Positions 2-50,925 of a stretch of DNA of 64,000 bases are shown one piece after another; position 1 is the stretch's first letter; every line of letters starts with the position of its first letter. Made by a program: the position numbers and the translations under genes. The stretch comes from Bacillus sp. AZ43 (GTDB lineage: Bacteria; Actinomycetota; Actinomycetes; Mycobacteriales; Geodermatophilaceae). The notes under the pieces are model-generated. The model was not told the origin of the DNA. It did not search any database and saw only the letters and a list, made by a program, of their open reading frames with translations. Location: assembly GCA_004570425.1 (NCBI GenBank), contig SPQJ01000014.1, positions 1 to 64,000 of the forward strand, given 5' to 3'.

Positions 2-649
2 GTGGGCTGCGGCCGGCCGGGGCTGGCCGGCGGGCTGCGCGCGCCGCTGACCGCCATCGCCCGGGCGTCGGGGGCCCTGCTCGGCTTCGTGCTGCTGCTC
101 AACCTCGACCTGCTGCTGGCCCGCCACCACCTCAGCGCGGCGGCCGCCGGCGAGTACGCCGTCGGGGCCGTCGTGGCCAAGGTGGCGTTCTGGGTGCCGC
201 AGGGCGTGGGGGTGGTGCTGCTCCCCCGCCTCGCCGACGAGCACCGCCGGGCGCAGCTGCTGCCGCGCGCGCTCGCGCTGGTCGCCGCCTCCGGGGCGCT
301 GCTCACCCTGTGCACCGCCGCCCTGGGCTCCACGGCGCTGCCCCTGATCGGCGGTTCGGCGTACGGCGACGCCCTCGGCTCGGCGACCTGGCTGTTCGCC
401 GCCCTGGGCACCCTGCTCGCCCTGGCCCAGCTGCTCCTCTACTCCGGCATCGCCACGGCCGACCACCTCGGCGTCGGTGCGGTGTGGGCGGCGGCGCTGG
501 CCGAGGCGGCGGTCGTCACCGCGCTCGACGTGTCGGGCCGGCTGTCCGTCGTCGTCCTGGTCGGCACGGCGGTCGGGACGGCGGTGCTGCTCGTCGCCGT
601 CGGCCTGCTGCGGGCCCGGATCGGGCGGCCCGCGCGTCCCGGGGAGTGA
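2..649 (+). CDS. Polysaccharide/lipid-linked oligosaccharide flippase, C-terminal part (5' end outside window)
   Basis: The reading frame is open from the first bases of the window, so the true start lies upstream. The 215 visible residues form a run of hydrophobic helices separated by short basic loops (for example LLGFVLLLNLDLLLARHH near residue 30 and TWLFAALGTLLALAQLLLY near residue 130). The pattern AAAGEYAVGAVVAKVAFWVPQGV near residue 50 resembles the C-terminal half of Wzx/MATE-fold polysaccharide exporters, which flip lipid-linked sugars across the membrane. The family call rests on overall resemblance rather than a catalytic motif. It might belong to a cell-surface glycan cluster extending left of the window. 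Confidence 0.6.
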   Translation: MGCGRPGLAGGLRAPLTAIARASGALLGFVLLLNLDLLLARHHLSAAAAGEYAVGAVVAKVAFWVPQGVGVVLLPRLADEHRRAQLLPRALALVAASGALLTLCTAALGSTALPLIGGSAYGDALGSATWLFAALGTLLALAQLLLYSGIATADHLGVGAVWAAALAEAAVVTALDVSGRLSVVVLVGTAVGTAVLLVAVGLLRARIGRPARPGE

Positions 650-653
650 TCAA

Positions 654-699
654 CTCCTGCCTCCGGGCACGACTAGCCGGCGGCCGCGGGGGGCAGGAG
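654..699 (+). terminator. Possible terminator hairpin after the flippase
   Basis: An 8-bp perfect inverted repeat (CTCCTGCC at 654-661, GGCAGGAG at 692-699) begins a few bases after the flippase stop. The 30-base loop is long and there is no T-tract, so this is a weak call. Confidence 0.35.
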
Positions 700-764
700 C
701 AGGGCACCATGCGCCCGGCCCCGCCGGGCGCCGCGTCCACGTCCCGACGAGAGGAGCGCCGTCC

Positions 765-1169
765 ATGGCGTCCGTCATCCACTACACGATCGCCACCGAG
801 GCCGAGAAGAGCCCGGACTTCCGCCGCGTCCTCTGGACCGGCAAGAAGACCCAGCTGGTCATCATGACCATCCCGCCGGGCGGGGAGATCGGCGAGGAGG
901 TGCACGAGGACATCGACCAGATCCTCACGTTCGTCAGCGGCACCGGGAAGGCGATCGTCTCGGGCTCCGAGAAGAACGTGGCCCAGGGCGACCTCGTCGT
1001 CGTCCCCGCCGGGAGCAAGCACAACTTCCTCAACACCGGTGAGAACCCGCTGATCCTCTACACCGTCTACGGCCCGCCGGAGCACGCCGACGGCGCCGTG
1101 CACAAGACGAAGGAGGAGGCCGACCGGCTCGAGGAGGAGGGCAAGGACGAGCCCCCGACCGAGGACTGA
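765..1169 (+). CDS. Cupin-domain protein
   Basis: A 134-residue single-domain cupin of unknown substrate. The small beta-barrel is visible as the two conserved cupin stretches: an acidic motif 1 (PPGGEIGEEVHEDIDQILTF, about residues 38-57) and motif 2 (GDLVVVPAGSKHNFLN, about 75-90). Motif 1 has H and E/D residues that could bind a metal, and motif 2 has a His. The C-terminus is very acidic (EEADRLEEEGKDEPPTED). The ATG is preceded by GAGGAG at 751-756 with 8 bases spacing, which decides the start over longer in-frame openings. The gene stands alone and is convergent with ackA. Such small cupins are often isomerases, dioxygenases or sugar/hormone binders; nothing here picks one. Confidence 0.8.
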   Translation: MASVIHYTIATEAEKSPDFRRVLWTGKKTQLVIMTIPPGGEIGEEVHEDIDQILTFVSGTGKAIVSGSEKNVAQGDLVVVPAGSKHNFLNTGENPLILYTVYGPPEHADGAVHKTKEEADRLEEEGKDEPPTED

Positions 1170-1183
1170 CCGGGCACTCTCCG

Positions 1184-1213
1184 GGTGGCCGCCGCCGGCC
1201 GGCGGCGGCCACC
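1184..1213. terminator. Bidirectional terminator between cupin and ackA
   Basis: A perfect 15-bp inverted repeat without spacer (GGTGGCCGCCGCCGG then its complement) fills the gap between two convergent stop codons (cupin 1169, ackA 1215). It could stop transcription from both sides. Confidence 0.7.
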
Positions 1214-1214
1214 G

Positions 1215-2309
1215 TCAGGCCACCGCGGACAGCACCTGCCGGCGGATCTCCAGGTCCTCCCGCGCGGTCACCACCACGGTGCGCACGGCCGAGCCGTCCG
1301 CGCTGACGTCCGCGTCGGCGGTGGCCGCCCGGTTGCGGGCGTCGTCCAGGCCGACCCCGAGGTGCGCGAGCCCGTCGGCCAGCGCAGCCCGCACCTCCCA
1401 GGACCCCTCCCCCGCCCCGCCGGTGACCACCAGCAGGTCCAGCCCCCCGGTGGCCGCCGTCATCGCCGCCGCCTCCCGCACCAGCCGGTGGGCGTAGACG
1501 TCGAACGCCAGCACGCAGTCCGGGTCGCCCCGATGCCGCCCGGCCAGCACCTCGCGCAGGTCGCCGTCGGTGCCCGAGAGCCCCTTCAGGCCGGCGTGGT
1601 GCTCGAGCACGTCGCCCAGCTCCGGCTCGGGCACGTGCCCGTGCTCCAGCAGCCACAGCACCAGGCCCGGGTCCACGGTGCCCGGCCGGGTGTTCATCAC
1701 CAGCCCGGCCAGCGGCGTGAACCCCATCGTCGTGTCGACCGACTCACCGCCGCGGACGGCGGCCAGCGACGCGCCGGCACCGAGGTGGCAGGACACCACC
1801 CGCAGGTCCTCGACCGGCCGGCCGACCAGCTCGGCGGCCCGGCGGACGGCGTGGGCGTGGGAGAGGCCGTGGAAGCCGTACCGGCGCAGCTGCCAGCGCT
1901 CGTTCCACTCCCGCGGCAGGGCGTAGGTGCGCGCCGCCGGCGAGAGCGTCGCGTGGAACGTGGTGTCGAAGCAGGCCACGGCGGGCGCGCCGGGGAGCAG
2001 CTCCTCGACTGCCCGGATCCCGGCGAGCGCCCGCGGGTTGTGCAGCGGCGCGAGGTGGCTGATCGACCACAGGTAGCTGGTCACCGCCGGGTCGATGAGC
2101 ACCGGGCCGGTGTACCGGGGCCCGCCGTGCACCACCCGGTGGCCGATCGCGCCCACCGGTCCGCACCCGCGGAGGAACGCCTCGAGCGGCTCCAGGTGCC
2201 CGGGGCCGTCCCACCCCTCCACGGTGGTGTGCGCGGTGACCGACCCGTCGTCGTCCAGGTGGGTGAGCTTGAGGCTGCTGGACCCGGCGTTGACGACGAG
2301 GACCGTCAC
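1215..2309 (-). CDS. ackA: Acetate kinase
   Basis: Interconverts acetyl phosphate and acetate with ADP/ATP in the cytoplasm. Family signatures seen in order are the N-terminal NAGSSSLK phosphate-binding motif (residues 6-13), [32 protein letters not shown] and [23 protein letters not shown], followed by a [12 protein letters not shown] segment matching the usual TGGIGEN region. At 364 residues it is slightly shorter than the usual ~400, but all expected motifs are present. The GTG start overlaps the phosphoketolase stop as GTGA, so the two are translationally coupled. The pair forms a phosphoketolase-acetate kinase shunt making ATP and acetate from sugar phosphates. Confidence 0.95.
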
Positions 2310-41943: not shown

Positions 41944-42716
41944 TCACACGCCGACGGCGTGGAACCCTCCGTCGACGTGCACGATCTCGCCGGTGGTCGC
42001 GGGGAACCAGTCCGAGAGCAGGGCGACGACGGCCTTGCCGGCGGGCTCGGTGTCGGTGACCGACCAGCCCAGCGGGGCGCGCCCCTCCCAGGCCTCCTCG
42101 AACTGGGCGGAGCCGGGGATGGACTTCATGGCCATGCTGCGCAGCGGCCCGGCGGCGACGATGTTCGACCGCACACCCTCGGGGCCGAGCTCGCGGGCGA
42201 CGTACCGGCTGACCGACTCCAGCGCCGCCTTGGCCGCTCCCATCCAGCCGTACACCGGCCACGCGACGGAGGCGTCGAAGGTCAGGCCGACGACGGACGA
42301 CGGGTTGGCCAGCAGCGGGCGGCAGGCCTGGGTGAGCGAGGCGTAGGACCACGACGACACCTGGAACGCCGTCGCCGCGTGCTCCCAGGCGACCTCGGGG
42401 AAGCCCTCCCCCATCGCCTCCTGGGGCGCGAAGCCGATCGAGTGGACGACGCCGTCGAGCGAGTCGAAGCCCTGCTCGCGCAGCCGGTCGGCCAGCGTGC
42501 CGAGGTGCTCGGTGTTCGTGACGTCGAGCTCGACGACGGCGGCCGCCTGCGGCAGCCGCTTGGCGATCCGCTGGCACAGCGAGAGCGCCCGGCCGAAGTT
42601 GGACAGGACGACGGTGGCGCCCTGCTCCTGCGCGATCCGGGCGGTGGCGAACGCGATGGACGCCTCCGTCAGGACGCCGGTGACGAGGACCTTCTTGCCC
42701 TCGAGGATGCCGCTCA

Positions 42717-42717
<1 letters not shown>
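41944..42717 (-). CDS. fabI: Enoyl-ACP reductase, InhA/FabI type
   Basis: Reduces trans-2-enoyl-ACP with NADH in fatty acid synthesis II. It is 257 residues. Starts GILEGKKVLVTGVLTEASIAFATARIAQEQGA; the InhA-type active Tyr/Lys region is VYGWMGAAKAALES near 160; FDASVAWPVYGWM and RELGPEGVRSNIVAAGPLRSMAMKSIPG follow. ATG at 42717 overlaps the fabG stop as ATGA. Isoniazid and triclosan target this enzyme in other actinobacteria. Confidence 0.95.
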
Positions 42718-43463
<746 letters not shown>

Positions 43464-43529: not shown

Positions 43530-45972
<2,443 letters not shown>

Positions 45973-46002
45973 GACGCGGAACCGTAGCTCCTTCCACCTC
46001 AA

Positions 46003-46031
46003 CGTATAGCGCGCCCCGGGGCTTGCGGCAA
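46003..46031 (-). promoter_or_regulatory. Promoter of DAHP synthase gene
   Basis: On the minus strand a -35 TTGCCG (46026-46031) and -10 TATACG (46003-46008) are separated by 17 bases. The -35 lies inside the RAE-like repeat. A transcript would start near 45996, leaving a ~24-base leader. Confidence 0.5.
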
Positions 46032-46036
46032 GACCC
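46018..46036. promoter_or_regulatory. Rifamycin-associated element (RAE)-like inverted repeat
   Basis: GGGGCTTGCGGCAAGACCC is a 19-bp inverted repeat around a central G with one mismatch, matching in size and core (CTTGC-N-GCAAG) the RAE motif known upstream of rifamycin-inactivating genes and helR in actinomycetes. It lies 64 bases before helR. The exact consensus should be checked against published alignments. Confidence 0.75.
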
Positions 46037-46099
46037 CGGTCGTCCCGAACAATCGCCGACCGCGCCGGAGCGACCGGGCGGCGGGAACGGGAGCAGCGC

Positions 46100-48253
46100 A
46101 TGCATGGCACCACCTCGGCGGGCGTCTTCGCCCTGCCCGACCACCTCGCGGCCAAGGCCGACCCTGCGCTGATCGGCGACGACGAGGCGCACTTCGCCGC
46201 CGTCGCGGCGAGCCTCGCGGACTCGATCGCCGGGCTGTCCGGACGCCTCCACGCCGAGCGCACCGCGGCCGGCGGCACCGGGCAGGAGGCGCTGGACCGG
46301 GACCTCGAGGTCCACCGGCTGACCGGGCGGTTGCGCACCCTGCGCCGCTTCGGCCTGGATCTGTGCCTGGGACGCATCGTCCGGGCCGGCGACGCCGAGC
46401 CGGTGTACGTCGGGCGGCTCGGCCTCACCGACGACGCGGGACGCCGGCTGCTGGTCGACTGGCGCTCCCCGGCCGCCGAGCCGTTCTTCGCCGCGACCCA
46501 CGCCGACCCCATGGGACTCGTGAGCCGGCGCCGGTACCGCTGGACCCGCGGCCGCATCACCGACTACTGGGACGAGGTGTTCGACGCCGAGGGCCTCGCG
46601 GGGCACGCCGCCCTCGACGACCAGTCCGCGTTCCTCGCCGGCCTGGGCACCAGCCGGTCCGAGCGGATGCGCGACGTCCTCGGCACCATCCAGGCCGACC
46701 AGCACGCGATCATCCGTGCGGGCTCGCGGGGCGCCCTCGTGGTCGACGGCGGACCGGGCACCGGCAAGACGGTCGTCGCGCTGCACCGCACCGCCCACCT
46801 CCTGTACGCCGAGCCGGAGCTGGCCTCCCGGGGCGGCGTGCTGTTCGTCGGCCCCCACGAGCCCTACCTCGCCTACGTCTCCGACGTGCTCCCCGGCCTC
46901 GGGGAGGAGGGGGTGCGGACCTGCACGCTGCGCGACCTCGTGCCGGAGGGGGCGACGGCGCGGATCGAGCCGGATCCGGAGGTGGCCCGGCTCAAGTCGT
47001 CGGCGGACCTGGTGCGCGCGATCGAGGCCGCCGTCCGGTTCTACGAGGAGCCACCGACGAGGCCGGTCACCGTCGCCACGCAGCGGGCCGACGTCCGGCT
47101 GACCGCCGACGACTGGGCCGACGCGTTCCGCGCCCCCGACCCCGGCACCCCGCACAACGAGGCCCGCGACGAGGTCTGGGAGGAGCTGGTCGCGATCCTC
47201 GTGGACAAGCACCCCGCGGACGACGACGTCCCCGACGACGAGGTGCGCGCCGAGCTCCTGGAGAACGACGAGCTGCGGACGGCGTTCACCCGCGCGTGGC
47301 CGCTGCTCGATGCGGCCGACGTCGTGGCGGACCTGTGGTCGGTGCCGGCCTACCTGCGGATGTGCGCTCCCTGGCTGGGCCCCGACGAGGTCCGCGTACT
47401 GCAGCGCGCCGATCCCCGGGCGTGGACGGTGTCCGACCTGCCGCTCCTGGACGCCGCCCGGCGGCGGCTCGGCGACCCGGAGGCCTCGCGTCACGGGCGG
47501 CGCCGGCGGGCCGCCGTCGCCGCCGAGCGCGCGCGCATGGCCGACGTCATCGCCGATCTCGTCGCCACCGACGACTCCGAGCTGAAGCTGATGACGACGC
47601 TGCGGCACGGCGACCTGCAGGACGCCCTCGTCGACGACGCGGCGCTGCCGAGCGCCGCCCCCGACGTGCTCGCCGGTCCGTTCGCGCACGTCGTGGTGGA
47701 CGAGGCGCAGGAGCTGACCGACGCCGAGTGGCAGATGCTGCTGCTCCGCTGCCCGTCGAGGAGCTTCACGATCGTCGGGGACCGCGCGCAGGCCCGGCAC
47801 GGCTTCCCCGAGTCGTGGCGGGAGCGGCTGCAACGGGTGGGACTGGGCGACGTGCAGCTCGCGTCGCTGACCATCAACTACCGGACGCCGGAGGAGGTCA
47901 TGGCCGAGGCCGAGCCGGTGATCCGGGCGGCGCTGCCGGACGCGAACGTGCCGACGTCGGTGCGCAGCAGCGGCGTCCCGGTGCACCACGGGTCCACGTC
48001 CGAGCTCGCGTCGGTGCTGGAGGGCTGGCTCGACCAGCACGCCGAGGGCACCGCCTGCGTCATCGGCGACGCGACCTTCGCGCCGACCGACCGCGTCCGT
48101 TCGCTGACCCCGTCGCTGGCGAAGGGCCTGGAGTTCGACCTCGTCGTCCTCGTCGACCCCGACGCGTTCGGCACCGGCACCGAGGGCGCCGTCGACCGCT
48201 ACGTCGCGATGACGCGGGCGACCCAGCGGCTCGTCGTCCTGACCAGCAGCTGA
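46100..48253 (+). CDS. helR: HelR, RNA-polymerase-recycling UvrD-like ATPase (rifamycin resistance)
   Basis: A 717-residue HelD-type superfamily 1 motor. HelR displaces rifamycins from RNA polymerase and rescues stalled enzyme in actinomycetes. Helicase motifs: Walker A GGPGTGKTVVALHRTAHLLY near residue 218, motif II HVVVDEAQELTDAEWQMLLL near 530, motif III FTIVGDRAQA, motif IV-like LTINYRTPEEVM, and motif VI VAMTRATQRLVVL near the C-terminus. The N-terminal ~150 residues form the HelD-like arm (RLTGRLRTLRRFGLDLCLGRIV, VDWRSPAAEPFF). ATG at 46100; GGGAGC lies upstream. The RAE-like repeat in its promoter is the strongest reason to prefer HelR over generic HelD. Confidence 0.9.
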   Translation: MHGTTSAGVFALPDHLAAKADPALIGDDEAHFAAVAASLADSIAGLSGRLHAERTAAGGTGQEALDRDLEVHRLTGRLRTLRRFGLDLCLGRIVRAGDAEPVYVGRLGLTDDAGRRLLVDWRSPAAEPFFAATHADPMGLVSRRRYRWTRGRITDYWDEVFDAEGLAGHAALDDQSAFLAGLGTSRSERMRDVLGTIQADQHAIIRAGSRGALVVDGGPGTGKTVVALHRTAHLLYAEPELASRGGVLFVGPHEPYLAYVSDVLPGLGEEGVRTCTLRDLVPEGATARIEPDPEVARLKSSADLVRAIEAAVRFYEEPPTRPVTVATQRADVRLTADDWADAFRAPDPGTPHNEARDEVWEELVAILVDKHPADDDVPDDEVRAELLENDELRTAFTRAWPLLDAADVVADLWSVPAYLRMCAPWLGPDEVRVLQRADPRAWTVSDLPLLDAARRRLGDPEASRHGRRRRAAVAAERARMADVIADLVATDDSELKLMTTLRHGDLQDALVDDAALPSAAPDVLAGPFAHVVVDEAQELTDAEWQMLLLRCPSRSFTIVGDRAQARHGFPESWRERLQRVGLGDVQLASLTINYRTPEEVMAEAEPVIRAALPDANVPTSVRSSGVPVHHGSTSELASVLEGWLDQHAEGTACVIGDATFAPTDRVRSLTPSLAKGLEFDLVVLVDPDAFGTGTEGAVDRYVAMTRATQRLVVLTSS

Positions 48254-48256
48254 GCG

Positions 48257-50407
48257 TCAGGCGGCCTGCTGCTCGGACAGGGCGTCGGTGAGCAGCGCGA
48301 CCAGCGCCTCGAGCTGGACGTCGGCGGACGACTGCACCTCCTCGTCCGAGCCGTCGAGCGCGCGGGCGGCCAGGCCGGCCTTGCTGTCGATCAGCTCGGC
48401 GATGCGGGAGTCGAGGGTCTGCGCGGCGAGGATCCGCCAGGCGGTGACCGGCTCGGTCTGCCCGATGCGGTGGCTGCGGTCGATCGCCTGCGTCTGCTCG
48501 GCGTCGGTCCAGGAGAGCTCCGCGAGCACGATGTTGGACGCGACCTGCAGGTTGAGGCCGACGCCCGCGGCGGTCAGGGAGCAGACCGCGACGGCGACGT
48601 CCGGGTCCTTCACGAACGCGTCGATGTGCCGCTGCCGCACCGACGGCGTCTGGTCGCCGCGGATCGACGAGTACCGGACGCCGAGCTTGGTGAACGTCTC
48701 CTCGGCGGCGTCCATGACGTCGACGTGCTTGGCGAAGAAGACCACCTTGCCGGCGCTGCGGGCGAGCTGCGCGGCGTAGTCGGCGGCGAGACCGGCCTTC
48801 GCCTGGCCGATGCGCCGCATCATGCTGAAGACGTTCTCGCCGCTGGTCTTCGTGCTGGTGTCCTTGAGCTCCCAGCCGGCCACCTTGCGGACGAGCGCGT
48901 GGTCGATGCCCACGACCTCGGTGGCGGACTCCCGGGCGGCGAGGGCGCTCTCGTACCGCTTGACCAGACGGCGGGCGAGCTCGCGCTCGGCGGCGCGGAT
49001 CGAGCGGCCGGCCGCGCTGTCGAGCTCGACGGGGAGGTCGGCGATGCGGCGGGCGGGGATGTCGGCGGCGACGTCGACCTTGCGGCGGCGGACGATGCCC
49101 ATGTCGATCACGCACTGGCGGGCCGCCGGGTAGAAGCCCGGGTCGGCGGGCGTGAGACCGGTGTCCTCCAGCCGCTGCATCAGCTCGCCGAGCGGCTTCT
49201 CGTCGTCGATCCACCCGAGGAACTGCCAGATGGCGCGGAAGTCGTCGATGTCGTTGATCAGCGGGGTGCCGGTCAGCGCCATCAGCAGCGGCCGGCCGAT
49301 GCGGGTGCGGATGCGCTCCGAGAGCTCCAGGACGTGCTGCGACCGCTGCGAGGTCTTGTTCTTGATGAAGTGCGCCTCGTCGACGACCATGCCGCGGAAC
49401 CCGAAGTCGCCGATCCAGCCGACGTGCCGGTCGAGCACCTCGTAGTTGACGACGACGATGTCGGCGAAGGCGTCGATCGTCTCGCCGTTGCCCTGGATGA
49501 CGGTGGCCGGGCGGTGCGGGACCCAGCGGCCGGCCTCGCGGGCCCAGTTGGTCTTGACGACGTTCGGCACGACCACGAGCAGCGGGAATGCCTGCGCCGC
49601 CTCGGCCGCCAGCAGCGACTGGGCGGTCTTGCCCAGGCCCGGCTCGTCGGCGAGCAGGAAGGTCCGGTGCCCGGCGGCGGCCGCGGCGACCAGCTGCGCC
49701 TGGTGGGGCATGAGCTCGAGCCCGGCCGGGACGCTCCAGGGCGCCGGGGTGGGGAGGTCCATGCACGCGGGGGCGCCGCCGCCGGCGCGCTCGAAGGAGG
49801 TGAACAGCGGGTCGAGCAGCTCCCACCCGGCCAGCCGTCGCGGGCGGGTGACGGCCGGGCGGGCCGCGGAGAAGTCGGGAGCGAGGAACGGGTTGGCCAG
49901 CTGGCGGGAGATGACCGACTGCGGCACGACCTGGCGTTCGGGCGCGGCGGGCGCGACGAAGGCGGCCGGCTCGGGCGGTGCCGTCTCCTCCTCCGGCGCC
50001 GCCTCGATGCCGACGGCGCCGAGCATCTCCCGCCGGATCGCCCGGGCGGACTCGGAGACGACGGCGTCGTCGGCGAGCAGCCCGTAGAGCGCGGAGTCGC
50101 GGACGGCGGTGGTGGCGAGGATGGTGGCGATGCCGTCGAGCCGCTTGAGCTGCTCGGACCGGCGGGACTCGCTGCCGGCCCTGTCGGCCTGCACGCGGGC
50201 GCGCTCCTCGCGGAGCAGCAGGGCGATGGCCTGGAACTCCGCGCGCACGGACGGCGTGACGCGGCCGCGCTGGACGGCGCCCTCGACCTCGCGCACGGCG
50301 CGGGCGAGGACGGCGATCAGGTCGTCGCCCTCGCGGACCCGCCGGGACCGCTGGCCTCGCGGGGCCTCACGGCGCGCGCCGGTCGAGCGTCGGCCTCGTC
50401 CTGCCAC
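48257..50407 (-). CDS. SNF2-type DEAD/H helicase with unusual N-terminal domain
   Basis: A 716-residue Swi2/Snf2-related ATPase. Motif I is LLADEPGLGKTAQSLLAAEAA (about residue 275), motif II MVVDEAHFIKNK, motif III LMALTGTPLIND, then in the second RecA domain KVVFFAKHVDVMDAAEE, VAVCSLTAAGVGLNLQVAS and the motif VI QAIDRSHRIGQTEPV. The N-terminal ~250 residues are not a known nuclease or zinc domain: a charged coiled coil (about 30-120) then an Ala/Pro/Glu-rich linker. Substrate unknown; such proteins remodel protein-DNA complexes. GTG at 50407 with GAGGAGG upstream is preferred to longer starts. It ends 3 bases from the helR stop, convergent. Confidence 0.85.
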   Translation of the reverse strand: MAGRGRRSTGARREAPRGQRSRRVREGDDLIAVLARAVREVEGAVQRGRVTPSVRAEFQAIALLLREERARVQADRAGSESRRSEQLKRLDGIATILATTAVRDSALYGLLADDAVVSESARAIRREMLGAVGIEAAPEEETAPPEPAAFVAPAAPERQVVPQSVISRQLANPFLAPDFSAARPAVTRPRRLAGWELLDPLFTSFERAGGGAPACMDLPTPAPWSVPAGLELMPHQAQLVAAAAAGHRTFLLADEPGLGKTAQSLLAAEAAQAFPLLVVVPNVVKTNWAREAGRWVPHRPATVIQGNGETIDAFADIVVVNYEVLDRHVGWIGDFGFRGMVVDEAHFIKNKTSQRSQHVLELSERIRTRIGRPLLMALTGTPLINDIDDFRAIWQFLGWIDDEKPLGELMQRLEDTGLTPADPGFYPAARQCVIDMGIVRRRKVDVAADIPARRIADLPVELDSAAGRSIRAAERELARRLVKRYESALAARESATEVVGIDHALVRKVAGWELKDTSTKTSGENVFSMMRRIGQAKAGLAADYAAQLARSAGKVVFFAKHVDVMDAAEETFTKLGVRYSSIRGDQTPSVRQRHIDAFVKDPDVAVAVCSLTAAGVGLNLQVASNIVLAELSWTDAEQTQAIDRSHRIGQTEPVTAWRILAAQTLDSRIAELIDSKAGLAARALDGSDEEVQSSADVQLEALVALLTDALSEQQAA

Positions 50408-50925
50408 GTACTCCTCCTCCACTGCCCTGCACCGCCCCGGCGGAACGCCGTGAACGACGGAGAACCCGCGCGAGCGGGTGAGAGCCGATCCCGCGGGTCT
50501 GCGGGAGCTCGACGTCTCCGGACCGGACGGCCGGCTCCCGCAGGAACGACGGCCGCTGATCGATCTGGCCCCACGGCACAGCCGAAGTCGTCGCCAGAGG
50601 AACGGCGCGGGCCTGGGCCGATGCTGTGTCGAGCGTAACGCCTGCCGGCCCGCGGGACTCCGCAGGCCATGACCGGGAAACCCCGCCACGGACGGCCTTG
50701 TTCCGCGCAGCTCTCCCGGGCGTCCCGTGCATGGCCTGTCACCACGCGGTCCGCAACGGTCGCGGCGGGCGCACGGGCAACATCTGACGAACCGGACCAG
50801 TCCGTCTCATCCGTCTCGGCCTCTCGCGGCGCGCGCTCGGGCACTTACGGTCAGTACCGACAGAGACGCAGCACGTAGCCGCCCGTCGCAGACGGACGCG
50901 CATCCGCCCACCGAGAGGAATCGAC
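50408..50925. other. 518-base gap without a convincing gene
   Basis: Lies between the divergent SNF2 helicase and BldC-like genes. It holds hairpins (ACCCGC/GCGGGT at 50464-50479; CTGCGGGAG/CTCCCGCAG at 50499-50543), but no ORF with codon structure I would trust. It probably contains the two promoters and may encode a leader RNA. Confidence 0.5.

Follow-up and report, generated by a model that had tools for sequence, protein, structure and literature searches.

This study was concerned with the control region between two divergent genes in Bacillus sp. AZ43, which is placed by GTDB in the Geodermatophilaceae of the Actinomycetota. One of these genes is helR, the other encodes 3-deoxy-7-phosphoheptulonate (DAHP) synthase, and a rifamycin-associated element (RAE) lies between them. 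The window denotes the whole stretch of DNA analysed, positions 1 to 64,000 of contig SPQJ01000014.1 (assembly GCA_004570425.1), and coordinates are those of the window. helR (46100..48250, plus strand) encodes an RNA polymerase recycling ATPase of the rifamycin-protecting class, and its product passes the HelR model NF041254 with 1261.6 bits (cut-off 750). The DAHP synthase gene (44758..45972, minus strand) is of class I and matches TIGR00034 with 376.5 bits (cut-off 173.2). The two start codons are 127 bp apart. Between them, at 46018..46036, lies GGGGCTTGCGGCAAGACCC, an imperfect palindrome of 19 bp whose arms differ by one mismatch, 63 bp before the helR ATG (46100) and 45 bp from the DAHP synthase ATG. 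A sequence-only reading of the window had noticed this repeat and taken it for the RAE upstream of helR. The repeat and its placement are confirmed, and so is the identification, since the core fits the consensus of our own site set, the repeat is the only exact match in the genome and the adjoining gene scores as helR.

The RAE and its two predicted promoters

In Actinobacteria the RAE has been described as a 19-bp palindrome before rifamycin-resistance genes and helR that possibly binds an unknown factor (PMC10719064, PMC12802891, PMC8655204, PMC10194278). The window element resembles the published one in being a 19-bp palindrome, here with a CTTGC-N-GCAAG core, that lies upstream of helR and overlaps the predicted -35 of the proximal sense promoter. 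Our RAE consensus was drawn from our own site set, and the oligonucleotide used for Mycobacterium smegmatis arr (PMC7882622) has the same core. The predicted sense promoter of helR consists of TTGCGG (46023..46028, plus strand) and, after a spacer of 19 bp, AACAAT (46048..46053, plus strand), which keeps the family geometry and departs from the family consensus CAnAAT. A predicted antisense promoter faces the DAHP synthase gene. Its -35, TTGCCG (46026..46031, minus strand), overlaps the sense -35, and its -10, TACGTT (46001..46006, minus strand), also follows a spacer of 19 bp; the RAE would be the shared -35 core of both promoters. The predicted antisense start is near 45994, which gives a predicted DAHP synthase leader of 22 nt (45973..45994, minus strand) containing AAGGAG.

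The sequence-only reading had proposed a good minus-strand promoter, TTGCCG-17-TATACG, with the -10 at 46003..46008. The -35 inside the repeat was borne out and these bases are present, but the spacer is better read as 19 bp than as 17 bp. The last T of a -10 is absent from TATACG, and a strict promoter scan with spacers of 16-18 bp found no promoter on either strand, spacers of 19 bp being invisible to that scan.

The exact pattern GGGNCTTGCNGCAAGNCCC has a single match in the whole genome (4,064,414 bases), which is the window RAE, and the remaining 14 of the 15 matches carry three mismatches. At the three-mismatch level this genome yields 100 reported sites for the reversed control pattern, and when the window was shuffled 100 times, at least one such site arose in 63 of the shuffles. 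Thus, three-mismatch matches are uninformative. Of 200 genomes from the order, 102 contain the exact pattern and 2 the reversed one; for the class the corresponding figures are 69 and 1 of 197. Among the matches listed for these order and class genomes there are at least 152 distinct RAE sites, and these form our main set. By sequence clustering, 148 of the 152 precede helR (80), rox (31), rph (21), rgt (8) or arr (8). For one or two representatives of each cluster the matching NCBIfam model was the top match, with the rph representative (797.9 of 999, its open reading frame (ORF) being cut by the locus end) and the rgt representative (616.2 of 800) below the curated cut-offs. That the palindrome arose by chance and has no regulatory role can in effect be dismissed: apart from G+C richness and the ease with which three-mismatch near-matches arise, nothing speaks for it, and it is contradicted by the 102 genomes against 2 and by the 148 of 152 sites that adjoin rifamycin-resistance genes.

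The four sites without an assigned gene were excluded from the comparisons below, leaving 148 sites that span 22 families and five gene families. The four comprise a shortened helR remnant that follows its RAE (L059), a rox with a disrupted frame, also after its RAE (L136), a site without a clear gene (L128) and a gene for an ATP-binding cassette transporter ATPase (L132). The last is DrrA-like (382-1305, minus strand, in its locus; TIGR01188, 338 bits), with the RAE at 1501-1519 and, by eye, a hairpin and T run on the outward side, and it is a candidate RAE-controlled rifamycin efflux gene.

Mirrored -10 elements and the antisense hairpin

Counted outward from the RAE, positions 12-17 read nAnnnT on the sense side of all 148 sites (30 at the next best offset). 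On the antisense side TAnnnT fills the same positions in 146 of the 148 (3 at the next best offset; median offset 0), and every one of the 22 families and five gene families is represented. Each of these -10 elements is 19 bp from a TTGCNG inside the palindrome. Over positions 1-25 on each side, only positions 13 (A-11, 148/148) and 17 (T-7, 146/148) are near-invariant and identical on both sides. At position 8 the two sides agree in 129 of 148 sites, and at position 12 (-12) in 0 of 148, one side having T and the other C. The -11 A and the -7 T of a -10 element are the bases captured by sigma, and a mirror image confined to these two bases fits sigma rather than a symmetric protein site. The 17-bp register was rejected as the main -10, since the last base of TATACG falls where G, not a conserved T, is found in 103 of 148 sites.

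Two further samples were used. The second sample was collected with the RAE pattern alone over named genomes (80 loci listed of 119 stretches, with 81 sites), and where no gene was assigned to a site, the better score decided its orientation. None of its sites is identical to a site of the first sample over 81-base windows, and 10 of 81 are at least 90% alike. Both -10 elements are at the exact offsets in 68 of the 70 actinobacterial sites listed, the two exceptions being shifted by one base; where the neighbouring gene set the orientation, the count is 63 of the 65 sites listed. Eight other or unplaced sites of this sample, for which no rifamycin gene was found, have both -10s in none of the eight. 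The HelR-anchored sample, in which a full RAE was not required, joined 22 HelR-type loci (L011-L032; 21 relatives and the window) to the 29 best-scoring of 51 matches. Loci with a cut or broken helR (L033-L035) were left out of the 22, L033 having no upstream DNA. The RAE core was found within 450 bp in 38 of the 51 loci, and both -10s accompany it in 38 of 38. An RAE with at most two mismatches is present in 17 of the 22 HelR-type loci, and the block to its left, typically cttCAACGTATAGCGC, is common to all 17 whatever the upstream gene.

The sense register was compared with a start site from a CRISPR interference study of M. smegmatis arr, in which the start is placed 31 bp ahead of the GTG and coordinates are stated for the oligonucleotides (PMC7882622). 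In that layout the RAE occupies -73 to -55 and CACAAT -43 to -38, and seven bases beyond T-7 is -31. The predicted sense start thus equals the published arr start, and the sense register is right there. On this footing, symmetry predicts that the antisense transcript begins at U-24. In 147 of 148 sites this base is G as read on the antisense strand, and C on the sense strand. In many of the 148 sites the beginning of the sense transcript is alike, by eye, at about 20-45 after the RAE (CGGCCGAGGCC..ACCTGCGGAAA), which may be a leader element.

A hairpin is often found at the predicted antisense start. It was counted in 146 sites, two of the 148 being too near contig ends. A stem of at least 7 from U-24 outward is present in 88 of 146 sites, compared with 19% of dinucleotide shuffles and with only 9 of 148 sites on the mirrored sense side; the mean energy z is -1.8 on the antisense side and +0.2 on the sense side. 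In 66 of the 88 the first base of the stem is the predicted antisense +1 itself. The eight bases past the stem contain 3.3 T on average, where about 1.4 are expected from the local T fraction of 0.17, and at least four of the eight are T in 45 of the 88. Typical arms are GGCAAGGAG..CTCCTTGCCTTT, and the arms co-vary: a stem of at least 9 forms in 61 of 146 sites (0.42) with their own arms and at a rate of 0.15 with arms taken from other families. A plain protein-binding repeat is disfavoured by this difference. Pairing across families is not zero, as some arms are alike (GGCAAGGAG in 20 of 83). Where stem and T tail coincide, the arrangement suggests a terminated antisense RNA of about 25-35 nt.

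We consider it highly probable, from these comparisons, that the anatomy of the RAE is that of two mirrored promoters. The published RAE is a 19-bp site; sequence conservation gives good support to a longer module around it, in which the mirrored antisense promoter is in many sites joined by a terminator-like hairpin. No description of an antisense promoter at the RAE was found in the available portions of the literature surveyed, a survey that did not extend to the original papers of Hurst-Hess 2022, Spanogiannopoulos 2014 and Surette 2022, so its absence from print is not proven. The block to the left of the RAE could instead be a second sense promoter. Two sense starts have been reported for M. 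smegmatis helD, and one of the promoters, P1, lies about 20 bp upstream of the RAE (PMC10719064), where it would overlap the antisense start. We regard this alternative as very improbable, since the invariant bases read as TAnnnT on the antisense strand, precisely mirroring the sense promoter, and the hairpin and T-rich tail come in antisense order, mostly from the predicted antisense +1.

The mirrored anatomy is also found beyond the Actinobacteria. Among the 11 listed sites of the second sample from outside this phylum or unplaced, three carry the full module: a Stenotrophomonas arr (L262), a second Stenotrophomonas site before arr (L258, refetched as L314) and an rph in a metagenome-assembled genome of Chloroflexi (L264). 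In the Stenotrophomonas family of the Gammaproteobacteria, the Xanthomonadaceae, an RAE with at most one mismatch was found in 28 of 119 genomes, against 7 of 119 for the reversed control. Counts for this family refer to 27 loci (L316-L342), with L313-L315 excluded because they duplicate sites of the second sample and three one-mismatch sites left out. A rifamycin gene adjoins the RAE in 24 of the 27. Before arr, 15 of 16 loci have the two -10s at the mirrored positions, and the hairpin is at its clearest, with a stem of at least 7 in 15 of 16, all 15 starting from the predicted +1, and at least four T following in 8. Two of the seven rox loci keep both -10s there, and the single rph locus and the three other loci do not. 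The module is therefore not confined to Actinobacteria, but drifts in the rox and rph copies of this family.

DAHP synthase on the outward arm

The sequence-only reading had assigned the minus-strand promoter to DAHP synthase. The RAE is only 45 bp from that gene, which is in keeping with the assignment, but the promoter belongs to the RAE module as one of its two built-in halves and is not special to DAHP synthase. In a gap of 45 bp, the DAHP synthase promoter must overlap the RAE or lie past it on the helR side. At the predicted antisense start of the window there is no hairpin of the kind described above (stem 5, z +0.4) and no T-rich tail; the bases after the short stem are GCGTCATG, the last three of which are the DAHP synthase start codon.

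Of the 16 genus genomes, 12 encode a class I DAHP synthase. From reading of the flanks, the divergent helR-DAHP synthase pairing is found only in this genome among the 12 with the gene. In another genome of the genus (G013) DAHP synthase also neighbours helR, but there it is convergent and on the far side. At the 11 other DAHP synthase loci of the genus no RAE was found, the best match having 4-5 mismatches, and the homology of the other DAHP synthases of the genus to the window gene begins at codons 3-7. Taken together, a pairing and an RAE seen here alone, the loss of the hairpin and homology that starts at codons 3-7 look like promoter capture, in which DAHP synthase of this genome took over the outward promoter of the module.

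Capture of the outward arm may recur at other RAEs, though the numbers are small. Among 21 candidate ORFs facing outward, eight were scanned in the right frame, and all eight were confirmed by Pfam. Six of the eight have stems of at most 5. These six are a methyltransferase whose ATG is approximately at the predicted antisense start (L115), an AraC-type regulator (L139), a class II tRNA synthetase read as ProS (L066), two short-chain dehydrogenases (L052, L053) and an Imm-5-like protein (L026). The other two, an MFS transporter (L110) and a PIG-L protein (L086), keep stems of 9 and 13.

It is a serious possibility, although we would not favour it, that the outward half is here a weak constitutive promoter of DAHP synthase with no meaningful effect of rifamycin on that gene. 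The divergent pairing in one of 12 genomes with the gene, the class II DAHP synthase encoded elsewhere in the same genome, and the window sense -10 AACAAT, off the CAnAAT consensus, would all agree with this. It is opposed by the overlap of the -35 boxes, through which a change in occupancy of the sense promoter should touch the antisense promoter. A role of the window gene as the aminoshikimate enzyme of the rifamycin starter unit was rejected, since the gene is of class I; the RifH-type DAHP synthase is of class II.

Other genes nearby include an SNF2-type helicase gene (48257-50689, minus strand) that is convergent with helR and whose top NCBIfam match, the SCO1167/SCO6262 family, is far under its cut-off. 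FabG-like and enoyl-ACP-reductase-like ORFs at 41944-43421 (minus strand) were recognised by reading of the ORF list.

Promoter competition and a bound regulator as proposed explanations

The reading to which we lean is that two mutually exclusive promoters share the RAE as their -35 core and that one of them has here been captured by DAHP synthase; we hold it to be probable, with some reserve. As the -35 boxes overlap inside TTGC-N-GCAA, polymerase can occupy one promoter or the other and not both. Both promoters would be of the sigma70 type. The sense promoter, TTGCNG-19-CAnAAT, would make the mRNA of the resistance gene. The antisense promoter, TTGCNG-19-TAnnTT, faces outward and would probably idle, making a tiny terminated RNA. 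By firing and holding polymerase it would keep helR low, and polymerase jammed by rifamycin would shift the balance to the sense promoter. In the window, where the hairpin is lost, the idling promoter becomes the predicted promoter of DAHP synthase, and the most straightforward expectation is that rifamycin would shift helR and DAHP synthase in opposite directions. For this scheme to work, the idling promoter must also be freed of jammed polymerase, or the palindrome must be read by an additional protein. That competition between polymerases is itself the rifamycin sensor is a tentative proposal, which we place somewhat below an even balance. The RAE-binding factor assumed by the sequence-only reading, whose interpretation is partly supported, may then be RNA polymerase itself.

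The mechanism of the RAE remains open according to a 2026 paper (PMC12802891), and the nearest parallel is found in the same paper. In Bacillus subtilis, rifampicin is sensed at helD and pps by a pair of promoters, one sense and one antisense, and at helD the antisense promoter, which gives a short terminated RNA, escapes faster and suppresses the sense promoter until the drug jams it (PMC12802891). The RAE module strongly resembles this alarm in having a HelD-family gene, an antisense spacer of 19 bp and a short terminated RNA, the last predicted in many relatives. The window itself has the sense and antisense promoters in one control region, as judged by sequence; with a stem of 5 and no T tail, however, it would lack the short terminated antisense RNA of B. 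subtilis.

Overlapping divergent promoters that share an operator are also familiar, for example in tetR-tetA and in MerR-type operons, and in the latter the palindrome lies in the spacer. The RAE is similar in that two opposed promoters surround one palindrome. It differs in that no conserved divergent regulator gene was recognised and in that the palindrome is on the -35 boxes rather than in the spacer, a geometry that excludes a MerR-like spacer operator.

A rival explanation is that a dedicated rifamycin-responsive dimeric protein, repressor or activator, covers both -35 boxes, so that relief raises both promoters and DAHP synthase is co-induced with helR. We consider this explanation rather doubtful overall, although it accounts directly for a palindrome of 19 bp. 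In the HelR-anchored sites the GGG arm and the CCC arm are each kept in 37 of 38, outside the -35 boxes, and such conserved arms favour a further protein that reads the palindrome; polymerase alone does not explain them. A review (PMC10719064) and the 2026 paper (PMC12802891) suppose an unknown RAE factor. The geometry puts the centre of the RAE near -33 of both promoters, which is a repressor-like position but equally the place where polymerase would sit. No self-regulating RAE regulator was recognised, as 148 of 152 sites precede helR, rox, rph, rgt or arr. A repressor needs no conserved antisense promoter and hairpin in 22 families, and the arr loci of the Stenotrophomonas family show this anatomy again.

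The helR loci without an RAE bear on the same question. The RAE core is absent within 450 bp in 13 of 51 HelR loci. Three of the 13 have an RAE further upstream (L366 at about 550 bp, L350 and L362 at about 1.4 kb; exact in each), and by their coordinates these distant elements are rgt sites of the main set, so that 10 of 51 loci have no RAE anywhere in the locus; the broken helR loci L034 and L035 hold none either. Upstream of RAE-less helR in L016, L018, L020, L021, L347, L351, L354 and L361, and partly in L353, stands TAGCAG-N12-CTCATGAG-16 bp-TAnGGT, in which CTCATGAG is palindromic, and a TA-rich block is present on the outward side here too. Some RAE-less helR have -10-like blocks on both sides of CTCATGAG, as would be expected if the bound protein had changed. 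As a general second element CTCATGAG is unlikely, since it was found in only 5 of 296 genomes of the class, at least four of the five directly beside helR.

Several points weigh against two competing promoters as the mechanism. First, a polymerase jammed at the antisense promoter would be expected to obstruct the sense promoter too. Secondly, the B. subtilis promoters are convergent and separate, whereas those of the RAE are divergent and share the -35 region, and a 17-bp deletion predicted to bring the B. subtilis promoters into steric clash abolished induction (PMC12802891); overlapping divergent promoters can therefore not simply copy that model. Third, TTGCNG with a spacer of 19 bp is a poor match to the promoter consensus, 58 of 146 sites have a stem below 7 (the window's own family contributes 14 of its 20 sites), and a T-rich tail follows only 45 of the 88 stems. 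To these belong the conserved arms, the P1 promoter of M. smegmatis, the helR loci without an RAE and the rox and rph copies of the Stenotrophomonas family noted above. The metabolic consequence drawn by the sequence-only reading is weakened on separate grounds: the genome encodes one class I and one class II DAHP synthase, so that flux into aromatics need not follow the class I gene and the metabolic effect could be slight.

In its full form, the proposal is that there is no dedicated RAE regulator, that polymerase itself senses the drug through an RAE toggle common to Actinobacteria and to arr of the Stenotrophomonas family, and that DAHP synthase has been captured on the idling arm. As a whole this is speculative, and we think it rather less likely to be right than wrong. 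Should the RAE prove to be a polymerase toggle, efforts to find an RAE-binding protein may be misdirected, and the drug would be sensed through its own target. What is new is the antisense promoter as a conserved half of the RAE module, running into a terminator-like hairpin in many relatives, and its mirrored signature extends a 19-bp element to a searchable module that reaches the Gammaproteobacteria. In contrast to the published RAE, the outward half of the module in this genome faces a metabolic gene. The helR-DAHP synthase pair is a natural two-way reporter, in which opposite responses would indicate competition and parallel responses a shared regulator. If the proposal is true, the first step of aromatic biosynthesis in this organism would be wired to the opposite arm of a drug alarm.

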